In this document: piece after piece, positions 27,457-37,769 of the stretch | Layout of the letters: every line of letters starts with the position of its first letter | Position numbering within the stretch: the first letter of the stretch is position 1 | Source of the DNA: Planctomycetaceae bacterium | GTDB lineage: Bacteria; Planctomycetota; Planctomycetia; Pirellulales; Pirellulaceae | Assembly (NCBI GenBank): GCA_007694185.1 | Contig: RECD01000190.1 | Coordinates: 1 to 38,051, forward strand | DNA length: 38,051 nucleotides | Direction: 5' to 3' | Position numbers and translations under genes: made by a program | Notes under the pieces: model-generated | The model's input: the letters and a program-made list of their open reading frames with translations, nothing else | What the model was told of the DNA's origin: nothing | Database searches by the model: none

Positions 27457-27757
27457 GGCGAAGCCGGTGCGTCGGGGCGGAAGCTCAAGACGGATGCTCG
27501 AAAATGAAACGGAATGGGGCTCGGTCGGGCGGAAAATCACCCGTTTGGTTCGCTCGGCGGTTCGGATGCGATCGAAATCCGGACCGCGTGCCGGGCGGCC
27601 AATGTGGCGAAGGACTGGCGCGGCGGCGGCAAGAACGTTCGCCCTTGCCTTCCGTTAAGATATGACATGTTTTCGGATTTGGCACCCTTGCCACTCGGCG
27701 TCATTTGCTAGACAGTGCGGTTTATTCAGCCAGCCCCTGCCGGAAAGAGCCCACCTC
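27457..27757. other. Divergent intergenic region, moaA / V-ATPase
   Basis: These 301 bases lie between the moaA start and the ATPase operon start. The part from about 27660 to 27745 is less GC-rich and probably holds the operon promoter. I see no gene, repeat or RNA element with confidence. Confidence 0.5.
27688..27714 (+). promoter_or_regulatory. Possible V-ATPase operon promoter (extended -10)
   Basis: TTGCCA at 27688-27693, a 15-base spacer and TGCTAGACA (-10 TAGACA at 27709-27714 with an upstream TG) form a fair extended -10 promoter about 45 bases before the first ATG. The short spacer weakens the case. Confidence 0.28.
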
Positions 27758-29098
27758 ATGATTCGGGACCTGTTGCTTCATACCAAGGTCATCTCGATCG
27801 TCGGCGACATTTTGACCGTGCGTGCCGATGACGTCGGGTTGGGCGAGTTGGCCGTCGTCGAATCCGAAGACGACGAAAGCTCATTGGCGCAAGTGGTCGA
27901 AATTCAGGAAGACAAGGTGTCCTTGCAGGTCTTCCGGGGTGCCAAGGGGATCACGACGCGAGCCCGAGTTCGATTTTTGGGGCACCCTGCCCGGGTCGCC
28001 TATTCGCCGAACATCCTCGGGCGGATTTTCAACGGGGTCGGCGAACCGATCGACGGCGGTCCGGCCCTGATCGACGACCCGCGGATCAACATCGGGGGGC
28101 CGTCGGTCAACCCGACGCTGCGGATCGTGCCCAAGCAGATGATCGAGACCAAGGTCCCGATGATCGACGTGTTCAACAGCTTGGTCGAGAGCCAAAAGAT
28201 TCCGATCTTTTCGATCGCGGGCGAGCCCTACAACAAATTGCTCGGCCGGATCGGGATCCAGGCTGACGCCGACATCGTCGTGTTCTGCGGCTTGGGGCTG
28301 ATCTTTGACGAGTTCCATTTTTTCCGGCGGATGTTCGAAGACGAGGGGATGCTGCCGCGGACGGTGATGTTCGCCAACCTCGCTTCGGACCCGATCGTCG
28401 AACGGCTGATGGCCCCCGACTTGGCCCTGAAGGTTGCCGAACGGTTCGCGGTCGAAGAAGGCAAGCGGGTGCTGGTGCTGATCACCGACATGACCGCGTT
28501 TGCTGACGCGTTGAAGGAAATCGGTGTGGCGATGGAGCGGGTCCCGTCCAATCGTGGATACATGGGTGACCTGTACAGCCAGTTGGCGTCCCGTTACGAG
28601 CGCGCCTGCGATTACAAGGGGGCCGGTTCGGTGACCCTGCTGGCGGTCACGACGATGCCGGGCAACGACGTCACTCACCCGGTCCCGGACAACACCGGCT
28701 ACATCACCGAAGGCCAGTTCTATTTGCATGGCGGGATGATCGATCCGTTCGGGTCGTTGTCCCGGTTGAAGCAGCAGGTGATCGGGACCGTCACCCGCGA
28801 GGATCACTCGCAGGTGATGAACACGATGATCCGGCTTTATTCGGGCGCTCGTGACGCCCAGAAGAAGCAGCAAATGGCGTTCGATTTGTCGCCGTTCGAT
28901 GAGAAATCGCTGAAATTCGGCAAGCTGTTTCAAGAGCGGTTCATGGACATCGATGTGTCGCTGACGCTCAACGAGGCGCTCGACCTGGGGTGGCAAACGA
29001 TGGCGGAGTGCTTCGAGCCGGAAGAGTTGCTGATGCGGGATCAGTTCATCGAGCGGTATTACCCTAAGAGTCTTCGAGATGGGAATCGCGCTCAATAA
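27758..29098 (+). CDS. atpB: V-type ATPase subunit B (non-catalytic)
   Basis: A 446-aa regulatory nucleotide-binding subunit of the V1 head, alternating with A around the rotor. The N-terminal beta-barrel is followed by YSPNILGRIFNGVGEPIDGG and by PIFSIAGEPYNKLLGRI, where a true Walker A is absent, as expected for subunit B. LITDMTAFADALKEI and VPSNRGYMGDLYSQLASRYERA are strong family motifs. DNTGYITEGQFYLHGGMIDPFGS precedes the C-terminal helices. ATG 27758 is the start; the frame open to 27662 carries no family sequence. It is the first gene of the operon here, although it normally follows subunit A. The last 20 bases overlap subunit D. Confidence 0.96.
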   Translation: MIRDLLLHTKVISIVGDILTVRADDVGLGELAVVESEDDESSLAQVVEIQEDKVSLQVFRGAKGITTRARVRFLGHPARVAYSPNILGRIFNGVGEPIDGGPALIDDPRINIGGPSVNPTLRIVPKQMIETKVPMIDVFNSLVESQKIPIFSIAGEPYNKLLGRIGIQADADIVVFCGLGLIFDEFHFFRRMFEDEGMLPRTVMFANLASDPIVERLMAPDLALKVAERFAVEEGKRVLVLITDMTAFADALKEIGVAMERVPSNRGYMGDLYSQLASRYERACDYKGAGSVTLLAVTTMPGNDVTHPVPDNTGYITEGQFYLHGGMIDPFGSLSRLKQQVIGTVTREDHSQVMNTMIRLYSGARDAQKKQQMAFDLSPFDEKSLKFGKLFQERFMDIDVSLTLNEALDLGWQTMAECFEPEELLMRDQFIERYYPKSLRDGNRAQ

Positions 29099-29684
29099 AA
29101 CGACGCTCAAGTCGCAGCGGGATCAGGCGAAGACCTACAAGCAGTTCCTGCCGTCGCTCGAATTGCGTCGTCAGCAGTTGTTGGCGGCTTTGAAGAAATC
29201 ACGACTGGAATTGCTCGCGATCGAAGCCCGGATCGAGGAGCTGCGGGTGCGGCTCGAACCGCTCTACCCGTTGCTCGGCAGTTCCACCATCCCGACGTTG
29301 ACGACGACCAGTCTGGTCAAGGTTCGGGCTGTCCGGATCGAGACCGAAAACATGGTCGGCACGAAGGTCCCGGTGGTCCGTGAAATCGATTTTGAGGTGG
29401 CGGAATACTGGCCGCTCGCGACCCCGTTTTGGTTCGATCACCTGATCGACAACCTGCGACACATGACCCGGTTGCGGGTCGAGCACCAGGTGGGTCAGCG
29501 GCGGGTCGAGGCGCTGGAATTGGCGGCTCGGCGGGTCACCCAGCGGGTCAATTTGTTCGAGAAGGTCTTGATCCCACGGGCCGAGGATAACATTCGTCGG
29601 ATCGTCATTTTTTTGTCTGACCAGGAGCGTGCCGCGGTGGTCCGTTCGAAAATTTCCAAACGGAAGCGGGCGTCGGAAGACTGA
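29079..29684 (+). CDS. atpD: V-type ATPase subunit D (central stalk)
   Basis: A 201-aa rotor shaft subunit, analogous to F-ATPase gamma. It is two long helices forming a coiled coil. The N-terminal one is NKTTLKSQRDQAKTYKQFLP followed by a Leu-rich segment to about residue 62. The C-terminal one is RVEALELAARRVTQRVNLFE through DNIRRIVIFLSDQERAAVVRSKISKRK, typical of subunit D. The middle part (70-125) is the variable globular head. The start overlaps the subunit B gene by 20 bases, which suggests translational coupling. Confidence 0.95.
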   Translation: MGIALNKTTLKSQRDQAKTYKQFLPSLELRRQQLLAALKKSRLELLAIEARIEELRVRLEPLYPLLGSSTIPTLTTTSLVKVRAVRIETENMVGTKVPVVREIDFEVAEYWPLATPFWFDHLIDNLRHMTRLRVEHQVGQRRVEALELAARRVTQRVNLFEKVLIPRAEDNIRRIVIFLSDQERAAVVRSKISKRKRASED

Positions 29685-29699
29685 CCCACCTCAGCACCC

Positions 29700-31562
29700 A
29701 TGGCCATCGTCAAGCTCAACAAGGTCACGCTTTACGGCTGCGAACCGCAGCGGGATGCGGTCCTGCGCGGGCTCCAGGATCTCGGCTGCGTCCATTTGGT
29801 CGATCTGCACGGGCCGGACAAACTTGAATACCTGGGTGACAAAGCCCGCAGCGAGGTTCACGAGGCGATCAAGTATTTGGAGTTGTGCCCGGATCAGCGG
29901 CCGGCGGCGACTCACACGTCGGAATACGACCGCGTCCGGATCACCCGCCGTACGCTGATCAATCGTCGTGCGCACGAGGACTTGGGTGAAGAACGCGAGA
30001 AGCTGAAGCGGGCCATCGCCGCGACCGCGGCGTGGGGAGATTTCGAGTTGCCCGACCCCGCATCGCTGGGCGGTTTGCGGTTGTGGCTCTACCGGTTGCG
30101 ACACAGCGAAATGGAACGGCTGGCCGAACTCGATTATGCCTGGCAGCTCGTTTCACGCAGCAGCCGGTTCGATCATGTGGTCGTCGTCAATCCGTCGGAG
30201 CCCAAGGGGGTGCCGGGGCGTCCGGTCACGCTCGATCATCGCTCACGAAGCGATCTGCTCAAGCGATTGGAAGAGGTCGAACGGTTGTTGGAACGGCTCG
30301 ACTTGGAACGGATCGCGCTGACCAGTTGGATCGTGCGATTGCGTGAGGACATGGAAGCGGCGGACGACGAACGTCGCTTGACCGTCGCGGCGGGGCATGC
30401 GTTGACCGAGGGACCGATTTTTGCGTTTCAGGGGTGGGCGCCCAAAGCGGCGACGGAGCCGATCGAGGAGTTCGCACGGCGTCAGGGCTTGGCATTGACC
30501 GTTCAGGCTCCGGGGCCGGACGACACGCCCCCGACGCTGCTCAGCAACCCGCGGGCGGTCGCTGGTGCCGAAGGCGCGGTGACGTTCTACATGACCCCGA
30601 GCTATCAGGCCTGGGACCCGACCTGGATCATGTACGTCTCGTTCTCGCTCTTTTTCGCGATGATCATGGCCGACGCCGCCTACGGGGTCGTGATGGCCAT
30701 CGTGTTGGCGGCGATCTGGGGCAAGCTGGGGAGTTCCGAAGGCGGTCGTCGGATGCGGGGCTTGTTGGCCGCGATCGTCGCGATGACGATCGGTTACGGG
30801 GTGCTGATCGGCAGCTATTTCGGCTCGGCCCCGCCGGCCGGTTCGCTGCCCGATCGTTTCGTCTGGAAAAGTGGCGAGGGCTCGATCATGAACGATCAGT
30901 CCGCGATGATGCTGTTGGCGGCTACCATCGGCGTTTTCCATCTGACGCTCGCCAACCTGATCAACGCTTGGAAATGGCTCGGAAGTTCGCGGGCGCTGGG
31001 CCATGTGGGTTGGGCCGTCGCGTTGGTCGGCGGGTTGGTGATGGCGATCGCGAAGCTGCCCGAACCGGCGGTCGTCCCCTGGCTGGCGGCGAAATTGGGC
31101 ATGCCGCCCGAGACGCTCGGCGAGTCCCTATGGCAAGTCGGCATGTTCGGGCTGGGCGGCGGGTTGGGGTTTGTGTTCCTGTTCTCCAGCGAGCGACCGT
31201 TCTTTTCCGCCAAGCCCAAAGATTGGTTGTGGCGGCCGCTCGAAGGTCTGATGGGACTGACGAACGTCTCGAAAGCTTTCGGCGATTCGCTCAGTTACCT
31301 CCGCTTGTTCGCCCTTGGGCTGGCCAGCGCCAAATTGGCCGTTACCTTTAACGGGCTCGCGTCCGAGGCGATGAACATGTCGGGGATCGGCATTCTGGTC
31401 GGATCGATCATTTTCTTTGTCGGTCACACGCTGAATCTGGCCTTGGGGATCGTGGGGGGAGTGGTCCACGGGCTACGTTTGAATTGCATCGAGTTTTTCA
31501 GTTGGTCCCTGACGGACGAGGGATATCCGTTTCGCGCATTTTGTAAAAAGGCAGACCGTTGA
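29700..31562 (+). CDS. atpI: V-type ATPase subunit I (membrane stator, a-subunit type)
   Basis: A 620-aa subunit that anchors the peripheral stalk and provides the ion half-channels next to the K ring. MAIVKLNKVTLYGCEPQRDA begins the cytoplasmic N-terminal half (to about residue 300), which contains a long coiled coil (RLEEVERLLERLDLERIALT). The membrane half begins at SLFFAMIMADAAYGVVMAIV and has seven or eight helices. FGDSLSYLRLFALGLASAKLA is the conserved helix with the Arg that faces the ring glutamate. The end (GIVGGVVHGLRLNCIEFFSW) is typical. It stops in a TGATG overlap with the K gene. Confidence 0.95.
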   Translation: MAIVKLNKVTLYGCEPQRDAVLRGLQDLGCVHLVDLHGPDKLEYLGDKARSEVHEAIKYLELCPDQRPAATHTSEYDRVRITRRTLINRRAHEDLGEEREKLKRAIAATAAWGDFELPDPASLGGLRLWLYRLRHSEMERLAELDYAWQLVSRSSRFDHVVVVNPSEPKGVPGRPVTLDHRSRSDLLKRLEEVERLLERLDLERIALTSWIVRLREDMEAADDERRLTVAAGHALTEGPIFAFQGWAPKAATEPIEEFARRQGLALTVQAPGPDDTPPTLLSNPRAVAGAEGAVTFYMTPSYQAWDPTWIMYVSFSLFFAMIMADAAYGVVMAIVLAAIWGKLGSSEGGRRMRGLLAAIVAMTIGYGVLIGSYFGSAPPAGSLPDRFVWKSGEGSIMNDQSAMMLLAATIGVFHLTLANLINAWKWLGSSRALGHVGWAVALVGGLVMAIAKLPEPAVVPWLAAKLGMPPETLGESLWQVGMFGLGGGLGFVFLFSSERPFFSAKPKDWLWRPLEGLMGLTNVSKAFGDSLSYLRLFALGLASAKLAVTFNGLASEAMNMSGIGILVGSIIFFVGHTLNLALGIVGGVVHGLRLNCIEFFSWSLTDEGYPFRAFCKKADR

Positions 31563-32023
31563 TGGATGATACATTTTGGCTGATGCTCGGCTGGGCCGGG
31601 ATTTATGCCCCGTTGTCCTTAGGGGCGATCGGCAGCATTTTGGGGTGTAGCGCCGCGGGCCAAGCGGCGTGCGGTGCGATGCTGGACGTCGAGACGGGCT
31701 ACGGCCGGCTGGTCGGCTTGTCGGCCTTGCCGTCGTCGCAAACGATTTACGGGATCGTCGTCATGTTGTCGTTGAACCGCCCGGTGACGGTCGAAGTCGC
31801 CCCCGGCCTATTCGCCATCGGGGTGATGTGCGGGGTCGCCCTGCTGTTCAGCGCTTGGTACCAGGGTCAGTGCTGTGCGTCGGCCGTTCACGCGACGAAG
31901 AACAAACCGGAGATTTTCGGCTTGTCGGCCGCCCCGGCGGCGATCGTCGAAGGCTTCGCCGTGTTCGCCTTCATCTTCGCCCTGATCATCGCGGTCGGCC
32001 TGCCCGTCCCGGGAGCCGTTTGA
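31562..32023 (+). CDS. atpK: V-type ATPase subunit K (rotor ring proteolipid)
   Basis: A 153-aa double-hairpin c-ring subunit with four membrane helices. The ion-carrying glutamate is Glu130 in PAAIVEGFAVFAFIFALI. The corresponding site in the first hairpin has Gln60 in ALPSSQTIYGIVV, so there is one ion-binding carboxylate per subunit, as in V-type rings. Leu56, Ser59, Gln60, Tyr63, Gln101 and Glu130 align with Enterococcus hirae NtpK Leu61, Thr64, Gln65, Tyr68, Gln110 and Glu139, which bind sodium. A TTG one codon earlier is a less likely start; ATG 31562 uses the TGATG junction. Unusually Cys-rich (Cys29, 37, 90, 104, 105). Confidence 0.95.
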   Translation: MDDTFWLMLGWAGIYAPLSLGAIGSILGCSAAGQAACGAMLDVETGYGRLVGLSALPSSQTIYGIVVMLSLNRPVTVEVAPGLFAIGVMCGVALLFSAWYQGQCCASAVHATKNKPEIFGLSAAPAAIVEGFAVFAFIFALIIAVGLPVPGAV

Positions 32024-32026
32024 GCC

Positions 32027-32668
32027 ATGGCCAATGAAAATCTGACCAAAGCCGCCGGCGTCGAGGAGCTGATCGATCGGCTGAAGACCGACGGCGTTAC
32101 CAAGGGAAAGCACGAGGCGGACGCGATCGTAGCCGACGCCAAACGCCAGGCCTTGAGCACGACCGATGCGGCGCGTCAGGAGGCGAACCAGATTATCGCG
32201 GACGCCAAAGCGGAGGCGGAACGGTTGCGTCAGACGTCGCATCAGGCGTTGCAGTTGGCCGGCCGAGACGCCTTGATCCGACTGCGTGAATCGTTCCAGT
32301 TGCAGTTCGAGAATCGCTTGCAGAAGCTGGTCGGATCGACCCTGCGAGATCCGGACACGTTGCGGCAACTGATTCTCGAGATCGCCGGCAAGGTGCGGCC
32401 GCAGCAGGCGGGTGAGACGGTCGAATTGTTGGTCCCTCGGGAATCGGCCCCCGCCGGCGACCCGCTGGCGTCCTACGTCGCCGGGTTGACGAGAGAAATG
32501 CTCGCCGAAGGGGTGACGTTCGGGGTGGACGACGATTTCGAGACCGGGGTGCGCGTGCGGCTCGTCGATCACGATCTCGACGTCGACCTCAGCGACGAGG
32601 CGTTGGCGCATTTTCTCGGGCGGTTCCTGATCCCGAGATTCCGTGACCTGATGGACTTCAAGAGCTGA
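32027..32668 (+). CDS. atpE: V-type ATPase subunit E (peripheral stalk)
   Basis: A 213-aa peripheral stalk subunit. The N-terminal 90 residues form a long charged helix (ELIDRLKTDGVTKGKHEADA, ADAKRQALSTTDAARQEANQ), which would pair with a stalk partner. The C-terminal globular domain is the A3B3-binding part. Identification rests partly on position between K and the DUF2764 gene, as in other bacterial V-ATPase operons, and partly on the helix-plus-domain layout. No separate G/H subunit gene is present, which is usual for bacterial operons of this type. It follows K after 3 bases. Confidence 0.88.
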   Translation: MANENLTKAAGVEELIDRLKTDGVTKGKHEADAIVADAKRQALSTTDAARQEANQIIADAKAEAERLRQTSHQALQLAGRDALIRLRESFQLQFENRLQKLVGSTLRDPDTLRQLILEIAGKVRPQQAGETVELLVPRESAPAGDPLASYVAGLTREMLAEGVTFGVDDDFETGVRVRLVDHDLDVDLSDEALAHFLGRFLIPRFRDLMDFKS

Positions 32669-32682
32669 GAGCTACGGCGACC

Positions 32683-33366
32683 GTGACCCATTCCCGTTCC
32701 TACTACACGCTCGTCGCCAGCCTGCCGGCATTGCCGTCGCGGTTCGATGCCGGCCGTGTGCCGATCAGCTGGCCGACGTTGCGTGATCGGTTGCGGATGT
32801 TGGAACTGCCGGACGCCAAAGTCACTCGCCAGATCGGCCGGTTTTTCCTGTGGGCCCGTCAGTCGCTCGACCAGACCGACGCGCAGGTGATCGAGCGGTA
32901 CCACGAACTGATGCGACACACGCCCAATTCGCTCGTCCGGCATTTGATCCACAGCCGTACCGAGAGCCGACTGTTGATCAGCGCCGTCCGGCGTCATCGG
33001 ATGGGGTTGGGCCCACCGGACTGGAGCTTGCGGGCCGGCACCGATGACCCGCTCGTCAGCCATTTGAAAAAGAATTGGTCGGAGCCGAACTTCAGCCTCG
33101 GCGCGCGGTACCGATGGATGGAAGCCTTCGTCAAGCACTATGACCAGGGCGACATGCGAATGGCCCAGTGGGTCACTTTCAATGAACGCTGGCGGGATTG
33201 GACCCGCATCGCCGAACGTTACAACTTCACTTTCGAGGCGGTCATCGTCTACCTGGTCCGCTGGGAGATCGTCGACCGCTGGACCAGCCAAAACGCCGAA
33301 GTCGGCAAGGCCCGCTTCGCCAACCTGATCAAGGAGACTTTGGGTGAATACGCAGAATCCCGGTAG
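32683..33366 (+). CDS. V-ATPase operon-associated DUF2764 protein
   Basis: A 227-aa protein matching DUF2764, found between the E and A genes of V-ATPase operons in Chlamydiae, Bacteroidetes and Planctomycetes. It begins SRSYYTLVASLPALPSRFDA, the family's hallmark start. The rest is mostly helical with many aromatic and charged residues (KKNWSEPNFSLGARYRW, NFTFEAVIVYLVRWEIVDRW). Its C-terminal half may take the role of subunit C, which is absent here, but this is inference. The start is GTG. The last 23 bases overlap the start of subunit A. Confidence 0.9.
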   Translation: MTHSRSYYTLVASLPALPSRFDAGRVPISWPTLRDRLRMLELPDAKVTRQIGRFFLWARQSLDQTDAQVIERYHELMRHTPNSLVRHLIHSRTESRLLISAVRRHRMGLGPPDWSLRAGTDDPLVSHLKKNWSEPNFSLGARYRWMEAFVKHYDQGDMRMAQWVTFNERWRDWTRIAERYNFTFEAVIVYLVRWEIVDRWTSQNAEVGKARFANLIKETLGEYAESR

Positions 33367-35200
33367 CGGCAGCGGCGCCGCGCGGTCGTCATCCGCGGCG
33401 CCGGCAACCGCGCGGGTGCTGGGCGTCAACGGCAACATCGTCCGGATCGCGGTCGATTCGGGGCCGATCATGAAGAACGAAGTCGCCTTCGTTCGGGTCG
33501 GCGAGGAACGGTTGAAATCGGAGGTGTTGCGGGTCTACGGCAACATCGCCGACTTGCAGGTCTTCGAAGATACCGACGGAGTCCGTCATGGCGATCCCGT
33601 CGAATTGACCGGCCGCATGTTGTCGCTGACCCTCGGCCCGGGGATGCTGGGCGTGATCTACGACGGCCTGCAGAACCCGCTGGTCACCCTGGCCGAGATG
33701 GACGGCTTTTTTCTCAAGCGGGGACGCGACCTCTACCCGTTGGACGCGAACCAGACCTGGGATTTCCAACCGGTGAAGCGACCGGGCGACCGGGTGCAGG
33801 CCGGCGACGCGCTGGGCCATGTCGACGAGAAGAACATCCGTCACCGGATCATGGCCCCCTTCGACCTGTCCGGGCCGGCCGATATCGTCTCGATCGAATC
33901 GGGCTCGCGGACCGCGCGGCAGGTCGTCGCCGTCTTGCAAGACCAACGCGGGCGTCGCCGGGAGGTCACCCTGACCCAGGATTGGCCGGTGCGGAGGCCG
34001 ATCCCGCAAGCGATGCAGCGGGCGAGGTTGGTGCAGCGGCGGTTCCCCAGCGAACCGTTGATCACGACCACCCGGATCATCGACACCTTCTTTCCGATCG
34101 CCCGCGGCGGGACGGCCTGTGTTCCGGGGCCGTTCGGCGCCGGCAAGACGGTCTTGCAGGGTTTGATCGCTCGTTATTGCACCGTCGACCTGGTGATCGT
34201 TGTCGCCTGTGGCGAACGGGCGGGCGAAGTGGTCGAAACGATCCATGACTTTGCCGAGATGCCGGACCCCCGGACCGGCGGCAAGCTGATGGACCGCACG
34301 ATCATCATCTGCAACACCTCCTCGATGCCGGTCGCCGCCCGGGAGGCATCCATTTACACCGGCATCACGCTGGGAGAATATTACCGGCAGATGGGACTGG
34401 ACGTCCTGCTGCTCGCTGATTCGACCTCCCGTTGGGCCCAAGCGATGCGGGAAACGTCCGGCCGCTTGGAAGAAATCCCCGGCGAGGAAGCCTTCCCGGC
34501 CTACCTCGACTCGGCGATCAAGGGCGTTTATGAACGCTCGGGAGTGCTCGAGTTGAACGACGGCACGACCGGCAGCCTGACCATGATCGGCTCGGTCTCG
34601 CCCGCCGGCGGCAACTTCGAGGAACCGGTCACCCAAGCGACGCTGGGAACGGTCAAGTGTTTCCTCGGGCTGTCTTATGCCCGCGCGTACAAGCGGTTCT
34701 ATCCGGCGATCGACCCGTTGATCTCGTGGTCGCGGTACCGCGAGCAGTTGCAATCCTATTTCGACGCGAACCTCGATCCGCACTGGACGGAAAGCGTCAC
34801 GCAGATGCACGAACTGCTTCGCAAGGGAGAGAACGTCTTCCAGATGATGCAGGTGACCGGCGAGGAAGGGGTCACGATCGGGGATTATGTGACCTATCAG
34901 AAGTCGCTGTTTTTCGACATGGTCTATTTGCAACAGGACGCGTTCGATAAGGTCGACGTGACGGTCCCGATCGATCGTCAGCGGGCGTCGTTCCTGCTGT
35001 GCAAGCGGATCATCGATCGGGATTACCAGTTCGACACGAAAGCCGAAGCGTTGACCTTTTTCACGCGGATGACGGGCTTGTTCAAAAATCTGAACTACGC
35101 CCCGTTCGAGTCGGCGGAATATCACAAGTACGTCGAACAGATCAACTCGCTCGACCGGGACGCCTACGCCGGACAAGCCGTCGCCACGACTGCGGGCTGA
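33344..35200 (+). CDS. atpA: V-type ATPase subunit A (catalytic)
   Basis: A 618-aa catalytic subunit that hydrolyses or makes ATP in the V1 head. The first 20 residues are a Gly/Ser/Ala-rich extension, then the beta-barrel (ARVLGVNGNIVRIA). The A-type bulge domain covers about residues 110-200, and Walker A is GPFGAGKTV (262-270). VIVVACGERAGEVVETIHDF carries the catalytic Glu of the GER motif. LLLADSTSRWAQAMRETSGR and EEIPGEEAFPAYL are the Walker B and contact regions. The start is GTG 33344, with AAGGAG seven bases before it, inside the end of the DUF2764 gene. It is last in this operon, whereas subunit A usually precedes B. Confidence 0.96.
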   Translation: MNTQNPGSGSGAARSSSAAPATARVLGVNGNIVRIAVDSGPIMKNEVAFVRVGEERLKSEVLRVYGNIADLQVFEDTDGVRHGDPVELTGRMLSLTLGPGMLGVIYDGLQNPLVTLAEMDGFFLKRGRDLYPLDANQTWDFQPVKRPGDRVQAGDALGHVDEKNIRHRIMAPFDLSGPADIVSIESGSRTARQVVAVLQDQRGRRREVTLTQDWPVRRPIPQAMQRARLVQRRFPSEPLITTTRIIDTFFPIARGGTACVPGPFGAGKTVLQGLIARYCTVDLVIVVACGERAGEVVETIHDFAEMPDPRTGGKLMDRTIIICNTSSMPVAAREASIYTGITLGEYYRQMGLDVLLLADSTSRWAQAMRETSGRLEEIPGEEAFPAYLDSAIKGVYERSGVLELNDGTTGSLTMIGSVSPAGGNFEEPVTQATLGTVKCFLGLSYARAYKRFYPAIDPLISWSRYREQLQSYFDANLDPHWTESVTQMHELLRKGENVFQMMQVTGEEGVTIGDYVTYQKSLFFDMVYLQQDAFDKVDVTVPIDRQRASFLLCKRIIDRDYQFDTKAEALTFFTRMTGLFKNLNYAPFESAEYHKYVEQINSLDRDAYAGQAVATTAG

Positions 35201-35245: not shown

Positions 35246-36640
35246 ATGAAGACTTCTCGCCACGACCTGGTCATCCTCGGCGGTGGCCCCGCCGGCTACG
35301 TCGCCGCCATCCGGGCCGCCCAACTCGGTATGAAGGTCGCTTGCATCGATGAGCAGGACCGCTTCGGCGGCACCTGCGTCCGTGTCGGGTGCATCCCCAG
35401 CAAAGCCTTGCTCGAATCGAGCCACTTGTATGCCGAAGCCAAACATCGGTTCGGCGAACATGGCTTGAAGGTCAGCGGCCTGGAGGTGGATCTGCCGGCG
35501 ATGATGGCCCGCAAGCAGAAGATCGTCGACACGCTGACCGGCGGCATCGACATGCTGTTCAAGCATCGCGGCGTCACCCCCGTCTTGGGGCGAGGCAAGT
35601 TGCGGGATGTCGAGACGGTCGAAGTGACCCAAGGCGACGATACGTTTTTGGTCCAAGGCGACCAATTGCTGCTCTGCCCTGGCAGTCGCCCGGCGTCGCT
35701 GCCGATGGTCGAAGAGGACGGTGACCGGATCGGCAACAGCACCACGGCGTTGTCTTTCCCGGACGTGCCGAAACGGCTCGTCGTCATCGGCGGCGGTTAC
35801 ATCGGCCTGGAACTCGGCAGCGTCTGGAATCGGCTCGGTAGCGAGGTGATCGTGCTCGAAGCGCTCGACCGCATCCTGCCGGGAATGGACTCGGAACTCG
35901 CGACGATCGCCCACCGAACGTTCAAGAAGCAAGGCATCGAATTCCGCACCAGCACCTTTGTCGAATCGGCCAAGCGGGATGGCGATCGCTGCGTCGTTGC
36001 GGTCAAGGGTTCCGACCCGATCGAATGCGACCGCGTGCTGTTGGCCACCGGCCGCACGCCAATGACGGCCGACCTGGGCTTGGAAGCGGTCGGCATCGAG
36101 CCCGATCGGCGCGGGTTCCTCAGCGTCGATGAGGACTTTCGCACCTCGGTCAAATCGATCTATGCGGCCGGCGATTGCATCGGCGGCCTGATGTTGGCCC
36201 ACAAGGCGATGGAAGAAGGGGTCGTCTGCGTCGAGCGGATGGCGGGTATCTCCGCCCACATGAATTACGACGTCATCCCGGCGATCATCTACACCCATCC
36301 CGAAATCGCTTCGGTCGGCAAGACCGAGGACCAATTGAAGGAAGCCGGCGTCGAGTACCGCAAGGGCATTTGCCCATTCGGCGCCAACGGCCGCGCCCGA
36401 ACCCTCGGTGAACCGGACGGCCGCGTCAAAGTTCTGGCCGACAAGCAGACCGACCGGATTCTCGGTGTACACATCATCGGCGTCCGGGCGGGTGACATGA
36501 TCGCCGAAGCGGCGGTGGCGATGGAGTTTGGCGCGACCAGCGAAGACGTCGCTCGGAGCTGCCACGCTCACCCGACCTTGGCGGAAGCGTTGCACGAAGC
36601 CGCCTTGGCGGTCGACGGCCGCGCCATCCATACCACCTGA
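35246..36640 (+). CDS. lpdA: Dihydrolipoyl dehydrogenase
   Basis: A 464-aa FAD-dependent disulfide oxidoreductase, the E3 component of 2-oxoacid dehydrogenase complexes or of glycine cleavage. LVILGGGPAGYVAAIRAA binds FAD, and the redox disulfide is in GGTCVRVGCIPSKALLESS. LVVIGGGYIGLELGSVWNRLG binds NAD, IYAAGDCIGGLMLAHKAMEE is the second FAD motif, and CHAHPTLAEALHEAALA carries the catalytic His-Glu pair. It lies 45 bases after subunit A and may be read through from the ATPase operon. No E1 or E2 gene is in the window, so its partner complex is unknown. Confidence 0.95.
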   Translation: MKTSRHDLVILGGGPAGYVAAIRAAQLGMKVACIDEQDRFGGTCVRVGCIPSKALLESSHLYAEAKHRFGEHGLKVSGLEVDLPAMMARKQKIVDTLTGGIDMLFKHRGVTPVLGRGKLRDVETVEVTQGDDTFLVQGDQLLLCPGSRPASLPMVEEDGDRIGNSTTALSFPDVPKRLVVIGGGYIGLELGSVWNRLGSEVIVLEALDRILPGMDSELATIAHRTFKKQGIEFRTSTFVESAKRDGDRCVVAVKGSDPIECDRVLLATGRTPMTADLGLEAVGIEPDRRGFLSVDEDFRTSVKSIYAAGDCIGGLMLAHKAMEEGVVCVERMAGISAHMNYDVIPAIIYTHPEIASVGKTEDQLKEAGVEYRKGICPFGANGRARTLGEPDGRVKVLADKQTDRILGVHIIGVRAGDMIAEAAVAMEFGATSEDVARSCHAHPTLAEALHEAALAVDGRAIHTT

Positions 36641-36758: not shown

Positions 36759-37769
36759 TCAGTTCGCTGCCGCCGTGGGTGACGCAGCCAAAGTGGCGAC
36801 GGGCAATCGAGCCAAGATCTGCCGGACCACCGGCAGGCTTAAACTGTTGCCGGCCAACGCCCAGCGGCGACGGGTCGATAACGCTTGGGGCCAACGAAAG
36901 TCGCTCGGAAACCCAAGCATCTTCAGCACCTCGTCAGGGGAAAAGAACCTCGCGTTCAGCGGCTCACCCGCTTGCAGACGCAGGTAAGAGCCGCTGCGAA
37001 CCGGCGTCCGTCCATAGCTGCTGGTGAAGCAGGCGGCTTGGCAAGCCGGATCATCGGGATCAACCAAGTCGATCGCCGAGCGATATTTTTCCAGCCACTC
37101 ACGCGGGACGGCGAGCGACGGGTCCGCGTCGTTGCCGCGGTCGATCAGCGTCCCGAGTTCGATCGGCGTGTGGCTCCAGCGGGCCTGGGGACGAAGCGGA
37201 CGGCGGCTGGCGATCAGATAACTCCGCAACCGCCGCATCGGCCAGCCGAGTTCCGAAGGGCAACGCAGTTCCCATTCACAGGTGAACCCGGCCGATTCCA
37301 ATTGCCGGCAGACCCGAGCCGCCGTCCGCGATTCGGCGAACGGGGGGACGTTTTCGATCACGATCGACTCGGGGTAGGGCAACTCGGCGATGACCCGACC
37401 GATCAGGGCCAGCAGCGATTCGGTGCGTGGATCTTCGTCATCCCGCTGTTTCCCCTTGCGGGTGAAAGGCAGGCAGGGCGGGCTGAGCCACCACAGATCG
37501 GCATTGAGCCGATCGACAGCGAGGCTGCGGATTTCGGCGGCATGCACCAGATGATTGGGAAAGTTCAACTGATAGACATCGAGCGCCCCCAGATCGATAT
37601 CCCAGGCCGACTTGATCTCGAGTGAGGGGCGACTCGAATCCGCAACGGTCCACGAGCGGATGGCGGACGCGAAACCACCGATACCGCAGTAGAGTTCGAC
37701 ACAACGGCACGGCATGAGTTCGGCCGCCTCGGGGCCGGCGGCTCGGGTAGGCAAATTTTCAACTGGCAT
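36759..37769 (-). CDS. DNMT2/TRDMT1-like cytosine-C5 methyltransferase
   Basis: A 336-aa SAM-dependent cytosine-C5 methyltransferase. Its motifs match DNMT2, a tRNA-Asp C38 methylase in eukaryotes, better than DNA methylases. VELYCGIGGFASAI (motif I, 24-37) is SAM binding. SPPCLPFTRKGKQ (96-108) is motif IV with Cys99 as nucleophile; the usual PPCQPFTR has Leu for Gln. IVIENVPPF is the ENV motif, RRLRSYLIA is motif VIII, and CFTSSYGRTPVRSGSYL (247-263) is the CFT element diagnostic of DNMT2. FFSPDEVLKMLGFP and RWALAGNSLSLPVV are motifs IX-X. No restriction endonuclease lies nearby, as expected for an RNA enzyme. Start uncertain: ATG 37769 is given; ATG 37715 would begin close to motif I, as in DNMT2. 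Confidence 0.88.
   Translation of the reverse strand: MPVENLPTRAAGPEAAELMPCRCVELYCGIGGFASAIRSWTVADSSRPSLEIKSAWDIDLGALDVYQLNFPNHLVHAAEIRSLAVDRLNADLWWLSPPCLPFTRKGKQRDDEDPRTESLLALIGRVIAELPYPESIVIENVPPFAESRTAARVCRQLESAGFTCEWELRCPSELGWPMRRLRSYLIASRRPLRPQARWSHTPIELGTLIDRGNDADPSLAVPREWLEKYRSAIDLVDPDDPACQAACFTSSYGRTPVRSGSYLRLQAGEPLNARFFSPDEVLKMLGFPSDFRWPQALSTRRRWALAGNSLSLPVVRQILARLPVATLAASPTAAAN

Follow-up and report, generated by a model that had tools for sequence, protein, structure and literature searches.

A planctomycete DNMT2 homologue with leucine beside the catalytic cysteine, in a host whose tRNA-Asp carries A38

At one end of a planctomycete contig lies an open frame whose motifs resemble those of DNMT2 (TRDMT1), which raises two questions: does it encode a true DNMT2 or a DNA cytosine methylase that looks like one, and what would such an enzyme methylate in this host? 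The frame, of 336 residues, spans 36759–37769 on the minus strand of contig RECD01000190.1 of Planctomycetaceae bacterium; this contig, 38,051 nucleotides long and analysed whole, is called the window below. The frame is a real gene and not a chance one, since it matches PF00145 (E 1.2e-27) and human DNMT2 (E 1.1e-37) and has two orthologues in the same genus, 54% identical to its product. These orthologues (L002 and L003) start at the residue matching Met19, so translation may in fact begin from the ATG at 37715; residues 1–3 and 5–9, which have pLDDT below 50 in the AlphaFold2 model, bear on the same point. The features referred to below are these:

36759..37769, minus strand: DNMT2-like cytosine-5 methyltransferase gene, 336 residues as read from 37769; alternative ATG at 37715 (Met19)
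37674..37697, minus strand: motif I, ELYCGIGG, residues 25–32; from the sequence, SAM site by family knowledge
37458..37484, minus strand: motif IV, SPPCLPFTR, residues 96–104, with catalytic Cys99 (Cys in 81/81) followed by Leu100 where Gln is usual
37347..37355, minus strand: motif VI, ENV, residues 139–141, invariant (81/81)
37224..37235, minus strand: motif VIII, RRLR, residues 179–182; Arg180 and Arg182 invariant (81/81)
37011..37031, minus strand: DNMT2 CFT motif, CFTSSYG, residues 247–253; from sequence and alignment
36840..36851, minus strand: motif X, GNSL, residues 307–310; from sequence and alignment

The motifs on which the original prediction was built are all present: PPCLPFTR (residues 97–104), ENV, RRLRSYLIA (179–187), CFTSSYG, LGFP (285–288) and GNSL. 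ELYCGIGG, which I take to be the SAM site, precedes them. Across the 81 aligned bacterial proteins in which motifs were counted, the catalytic Cys, the Glu and the Arg pair are kept without exception. The CFT motif, placed near motif IX in the passage of PMC3227630 that describes it for DNMT2, is exact in 64 of them, with 17 exceptions. Two further signatures are given in part of PMC3380923. The first, hydrophobic-D-I-V, reads IDLV at residues 233–236 of the window protein; its Asp occurs in 24 of the 81 bacterial members, the motif having been described from eukaryotic enzymes. The second, CFTxxYxxY, ends in a Tyr that is Thr255 in the window protein and is found in 1 of the 81; since this Tyr is also absent from the S. 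pombe and Entamoeba DNMT2 sequences compared, it does not define the family.

General libraries would make the protein a DNA methylase: Pfam and NCBIfam cover only the general C5-methylase family (PF00145 in the former; in the latter dcm, whose 74 bits fall short of the 100.65 cut-off), and PADLOC assigns it as a type II methylase or DruM. It could then be a solitary DNA cytosine methylase merely resembling DNMT2, with the chromosome or invading DNA as its substrate, and part of PMC3380923 indeed reports weak DNA activity for DNMT2 enzymes. More specific comparisons set the protein apart from DNA methylases. A phmmer search of solved structures returned human DNMT2 first, followed by the DNMT2 enzymes of insect, S. 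pombe and Entamoeba, while the best HhaI entry reached E 1.5e-9; a family profile of 11 members gave five DNMT2 sequences E-values of 1.3e-74 to 2.5e-59, against 1.1e-32 for the best HhaI. The AlphaFold2 model (81 sequences; mean pLDDT 92, pTM 0.90) ranks the same way. Foldseek places nine DNMT2 chains at ranks 1–9 by E-value and HhaI next, although the TM-scores overlap (0.74–0.79 for DNMT2, up to 0.74 for the better HhaI entries), and in VIA-align five DNMT2 entries have Z-scores of 32.0–36.1 where the best HhaI entry has 30.1, a modest gap given that the fold is shared. Human DNMT2 (1g55, 9hgm) shares with the window protein the fold, the catalytic residues, CFT and GNSL; for 1g55 the Z-score is 33.7 over 277 residues, 32% of the aligned residues being identical. 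M.HhaI, a DNA methylase of a restriction system, has the same catalytic fold, but the M.HhaI sequence used has no CFT and falls on a separate branch in the trees.

Those trees put the window protein on the DNMT2 side, which is where the original prediction had expected it. In a quick tree of 87 rows, 13 DNA methylases split from 74 DNMT2 rows with SH-aLRT 96; in a careful tree of 45 rows, a DNMT2 branch holding both bacterial and eukaryotic members splits from nine DNA methylases at 98/98, the eukaryotic sequences group together (100/99), and so do the window protein and its two genus relatives (100/99). One AU test counts against the DNMT2 reading: constraining the window protein to group with the DNA methylases yields p 0.055, no clear rejection. 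Constraining it to group with the eukaryotes yields p 0.0013. The order of eukaryotic and bacterial DNMT2 differs between the trees, being one of sister groups in the quick tree (96) and having 49/10, that is no resolution, in the careful one, with four eukaryotic sequences in all. Sequence, tree and predicted structure all put the window protein closer to the DNMT2 of eukaryotes than to DNA methylases of the restriction type. Its membership of the DNMT2 (TRDMT1-type) family, on which phmmer, family profile, trees and predicted structure agree, is well supported and nearly certain, while the solitary DNA methylase is very improbable.

The surroundings of the gene were considered in the same light, a neighbouring restriction endonuclease or nicking enzyme being what was looked for. 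On the near side the neighbours are a dihydrolipoyl dehydrogenase gene (35246–36640), convergent with the DNMT2-like gene, and V-type ATPase genes beyond it. In the opposite direction the contig stops at 38051, only 282 bases upstream of 37769, so that the upstream side of the gene is unseen. Promoter and terminator scans gave results at about chance level. The V-type ATPase genes near the dehydrogenase gene (subunits B, I, K/C, E and A) extend over 27662–35200.

According to a passage of PMC3227630, Geobacter was in 2011 the one known bacterial source of DNMT2, which it might have acquired from eukaryotes. A scan of genomes from 84,980 species now gave 442 pattern matches, 266 of them encoding relatives, of which the best 80 were kept as loci. 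These 80 score 298–429 bits with the family profile, whereas twelve DNA methylases encountered in the relatives reach 58–104 bits; two fragments of the same family at contig ends score 204 bits (L012) and 98 bits (L023). The best 80 of the 266 come from Planctomycetota, Acidobacteriota, Geobacter and other Desulfuromonadales, Syntrophales, Sulfurospirillum, Myxococcales and others; many relatives are metagenome bins, and an isolated odd taxon may reflect mis-binning. Within Pirellulaceae, the family of the window, 55 of 199 genomes have a match at E 1e-40 or better; of 294 genomes sampled across the phylum, 3 do, the window's own and two of another family. The claim that DNMT2 is rare in bacteria and known from Geobacter therefore understates its spread: bacterial DNMT2 is not confined to Geobacter, with more than a quarter of the family's genomes and at least 80 loci in several phyla bearing it, although in the phylum at large the gene is still rare. 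A set drawn from many phyla makes the origin of DNMT2 testable anew. No relative was met in a single-protein scan of viral contigs, and in literature on bacterial DNMT2/TRDMT1, covered in part through titles and the beginnings of abstracts, no account of a planctomycete DNMT2 was found.

The 80 related loci also bear on the DNA methylase alternative. None of their 25 commonest neighbour clusters occurs in more than 11 loci, which argues against a standing restriction partner as far as recurrence goes, an endonuclease in single loci being possible. The commonest cluster (11 of 80 loci) looks by eye like a sulfatase. At L069 and L099 the DNMT2 domain is embedded in open frames of unusual length (655 and 1076 codons between stops), perhaps through base composition only.

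If the protein is a DNMT2, does the leucine beside its catalytic cysteine mark an altered enzyme, as had been proposed? The Gln-to-Leu change is real, and at position 100 the 81 aligned proteins have Gln in 68, Thr in 9, Leu in 3 and Pro in 1. With 13 of the 81 bacterial members lacking Gln, the site is tolerant, and Leu alone is no argument for altered activity. The three Leu rows are the window protein, L029 and L030, the latter two being taken, with the profile score among the grounds, as the same genes as L002 and L003. The proposal that relatives be examined for the Leu had a clear outcome: the gene is found in 3 of the 5 genus genomes examined, the window's included, and Leu100 is common to all three. 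The change can accordingly be called shared within the genus, and on the sequences compared I conclude that it is by itself no sign of inactivity. Five of the nine Thr rows were kept in the quick tree, where they form one branch (support 97); seven of the nine Thr-bearing members (L066, L067, L073, L077, L078, L083 and L084) have CFA or CFG instead of CFT.

A weakened or inactive DNMT2, a tRNA-binding chaperone or a decaying gene, could nevertheless be imagined from the scarcity of Leu in the alignment and from the lack of a match to the gene in two of the four other genus genomes (95% and 89% complete). This is improbable: the remaining catalytic residues are all kept, and the other two genes with Leu, compared as a single pair that takes in two codons ahead of the ATG, give a dN/dS of 0.19; between one of them and the window gene the ratio is 0.31, with a large synonymous change (dS 1.4). 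Moreover, part of PMC5372726 describes an S. pombe DNMT2 in which Pro-to-Ser on the other side of the Cys leaves the enzyme active. In M.HhaI the equivalent residue, Gln82, is listed as DNA-binding, and it is kept in Entamoeba DNMT2, according to a portion of PMC3380923; its loss from the window protein speaks against a DNA methylase. Leu100 is read, from these sequence comparisons, as a probably tolerated and not an inactivating substitution at a site that contacts nucleic acid in M.HhaI.

The remaining question is that of the substrate. C38 is the usual base at that position of tRNA-Asp and an aspartate identity base in bacteria, and the original prediction cited it as the base that DNMT2 methylates. 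Rfam gave 39 tRNA matches in the host, of which ARAGORN read 38, the 39th being a tRNA-Ile that runs off the end of a contig (its loop is CUGAUAA, with A38); with this truncation and one tRNA-Met only, the list is probably incomplete. The sole tRNA-Asp found, at G000:C177:3089-3129, has the loop CUGUCGA, with G37-A38. The classical DNMT2 target base is thus missing from this host as far as the tRNAs found, and tRNA-Asp does not hold as the target here. Among the 199 family genomes an exact pattern finds A38 in the tRNA-Asp of 178 and C38 in 5. A38 occurs in 49 of the 55 DNMT2-bearing genomes (C38 in 2, no match in 4) and in 129 of the 144 without the gene (C38 in 3, no match in 12). Gene presence as a correlate of tRNA-Asp position 38 in the family was set aside, no association being found (Fisher p 0.62). 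Phylum-wide, where 201 of 294 genomes have a match, A38 is frequent among the matches listed, and since the gene is rare there, loss of C38 does not follow the gene. Outside the family, 50 DNMT2-bearing genomes (taken as outside it by the titles of their loci) include 21 with a tRNA-Asp match, all 26 matches having C38, and 29 with none by the exact pattern. A DNMT2 in a host that has tRNA-Asp without the base to methylate is a natural experiment parting the enzyme from its best-known substrate. In hosts with A38, the aspartyl-tRNA synthetase would have to cope without the usual identity base.

Four of the host tRNAs have C38: Glu(UUC), Gln(CUG), Ser(GGA) and Val(UAC). The identity sequence of human DNMT2 is given in part of PMC9976931 as C32-U-N-N-C-A-C38, and by this rule, taken from the human enzyme, tRNA-Glu(UUC), with the loop CUUUCAC, alone among the 39 tRNAs found fits. 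Table 1 of PMC5372726 lists tRNA-Glu as the substrate of Geobacter DNMT2. C38 is present in all 39 of the DNMT2-bearing family genomes with a usable tRNA-Glu match among the matches listed; the rest of the 55 comprise 7 without a match, 1 with a match unlike a tRNA, and 8 outside the matches listed, including the host, whose C38 was read by ARAGORN. Relatives that lack the gene have C38 in tRNA-Glu as well, which means that conservation of this base is no pointer to the DNMT2 enzyme. Confidence in the tRNA-Glu reading is slightly lowered by the absence of a tRNA-Glu match, by exact pattern, from G001 and G004, the genomes that hold the other two Leu-bearing genes. An enzyme whose main target is another C38 tRNA, such as tRNA-Val(UAC), or several tRNAs, is the chief competitor: eukaryotic DNMT2 enzymes are described in part of PMC5372726 as acting in some cases on tRNA-Val and tRNA-Gly too, and tRNA-Val(UAC) has C38 in 29 of 44 DNMT2-bearing family genomes among the matches listed. 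Yet the other 15 of the 44 have A38 and, in the host, none of the Val, Gln and Ser loops matches the human sequence, which makes this unlikely. A tie between gene presence and tRNA-Val(UAC) was dropped as inconsistent.

The reading that I prefer, and hold to be probable, is that the enzyme is a bacterial DNMT2 making m5C38 in tRNA-Glu, as reported for Geobacter. Methylation of tRNA as such is predicted with considerable assurance, and tRNA-Glu as its main target with somewhat better than even expectation. S-adenosylmethionine would be bound at motif I and cytosine 38 of the anticodon loop, most likely that of tRNA-Glu(UUC), would be flipped out; Cys99 would attack C6 of this cytosine with the help of Glu139, Arg180 and Arg182, and the methyl group would be moved to C5, yielding 5-methylcytosine. 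Effects on tRNA charging, stability or translation may follow. It is conceivable, though doubtful, that planctomycete DNMT2 abandoned tRNA-Asp entirely because that tRNA lost C38, and that a lineage-specific rewiring of the active-site loop, with Leu or Thr replacing Gln next to the catalytic Cys, adapted the enzyme to tRNA-Glu or another RNA.

The window gene thus adds to the DNMT2 family a member whose motif IV is uncommon and in whose host the classical substrate base was not found. It resembles the DNMT2 of Geobacter sulfurreducens in being a bacterial enzyme of this family, the latter with tRNA-Glu methylation reported in part of PMC5372726, and the quick tree places relatives from Geobacter in the DNMT2 branch too, G. 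sulfurreducens itself being outside the set. It differs from Geobacteraceae in motif IV, PPCQP in all eight proteins fetched and PPCLP in the window, and in tRNA-Asp, for which three of the eight genomes have a pattern match, each with C38 against A38 in the window host. From human DNMT2 it likewise differs in PPCL against PPCQ and in the tRNA-Asp C38 target, not found in its host. The host has tgt, the queuosine insertion gene. In several family genomes a second tRNA-Glu-like sequence with A38 (loop CTTTCAA or CTTTCGA) stands beside the one with CTTTCAC, for example at G067:C201, G023:C1:749915 and G007:C119.
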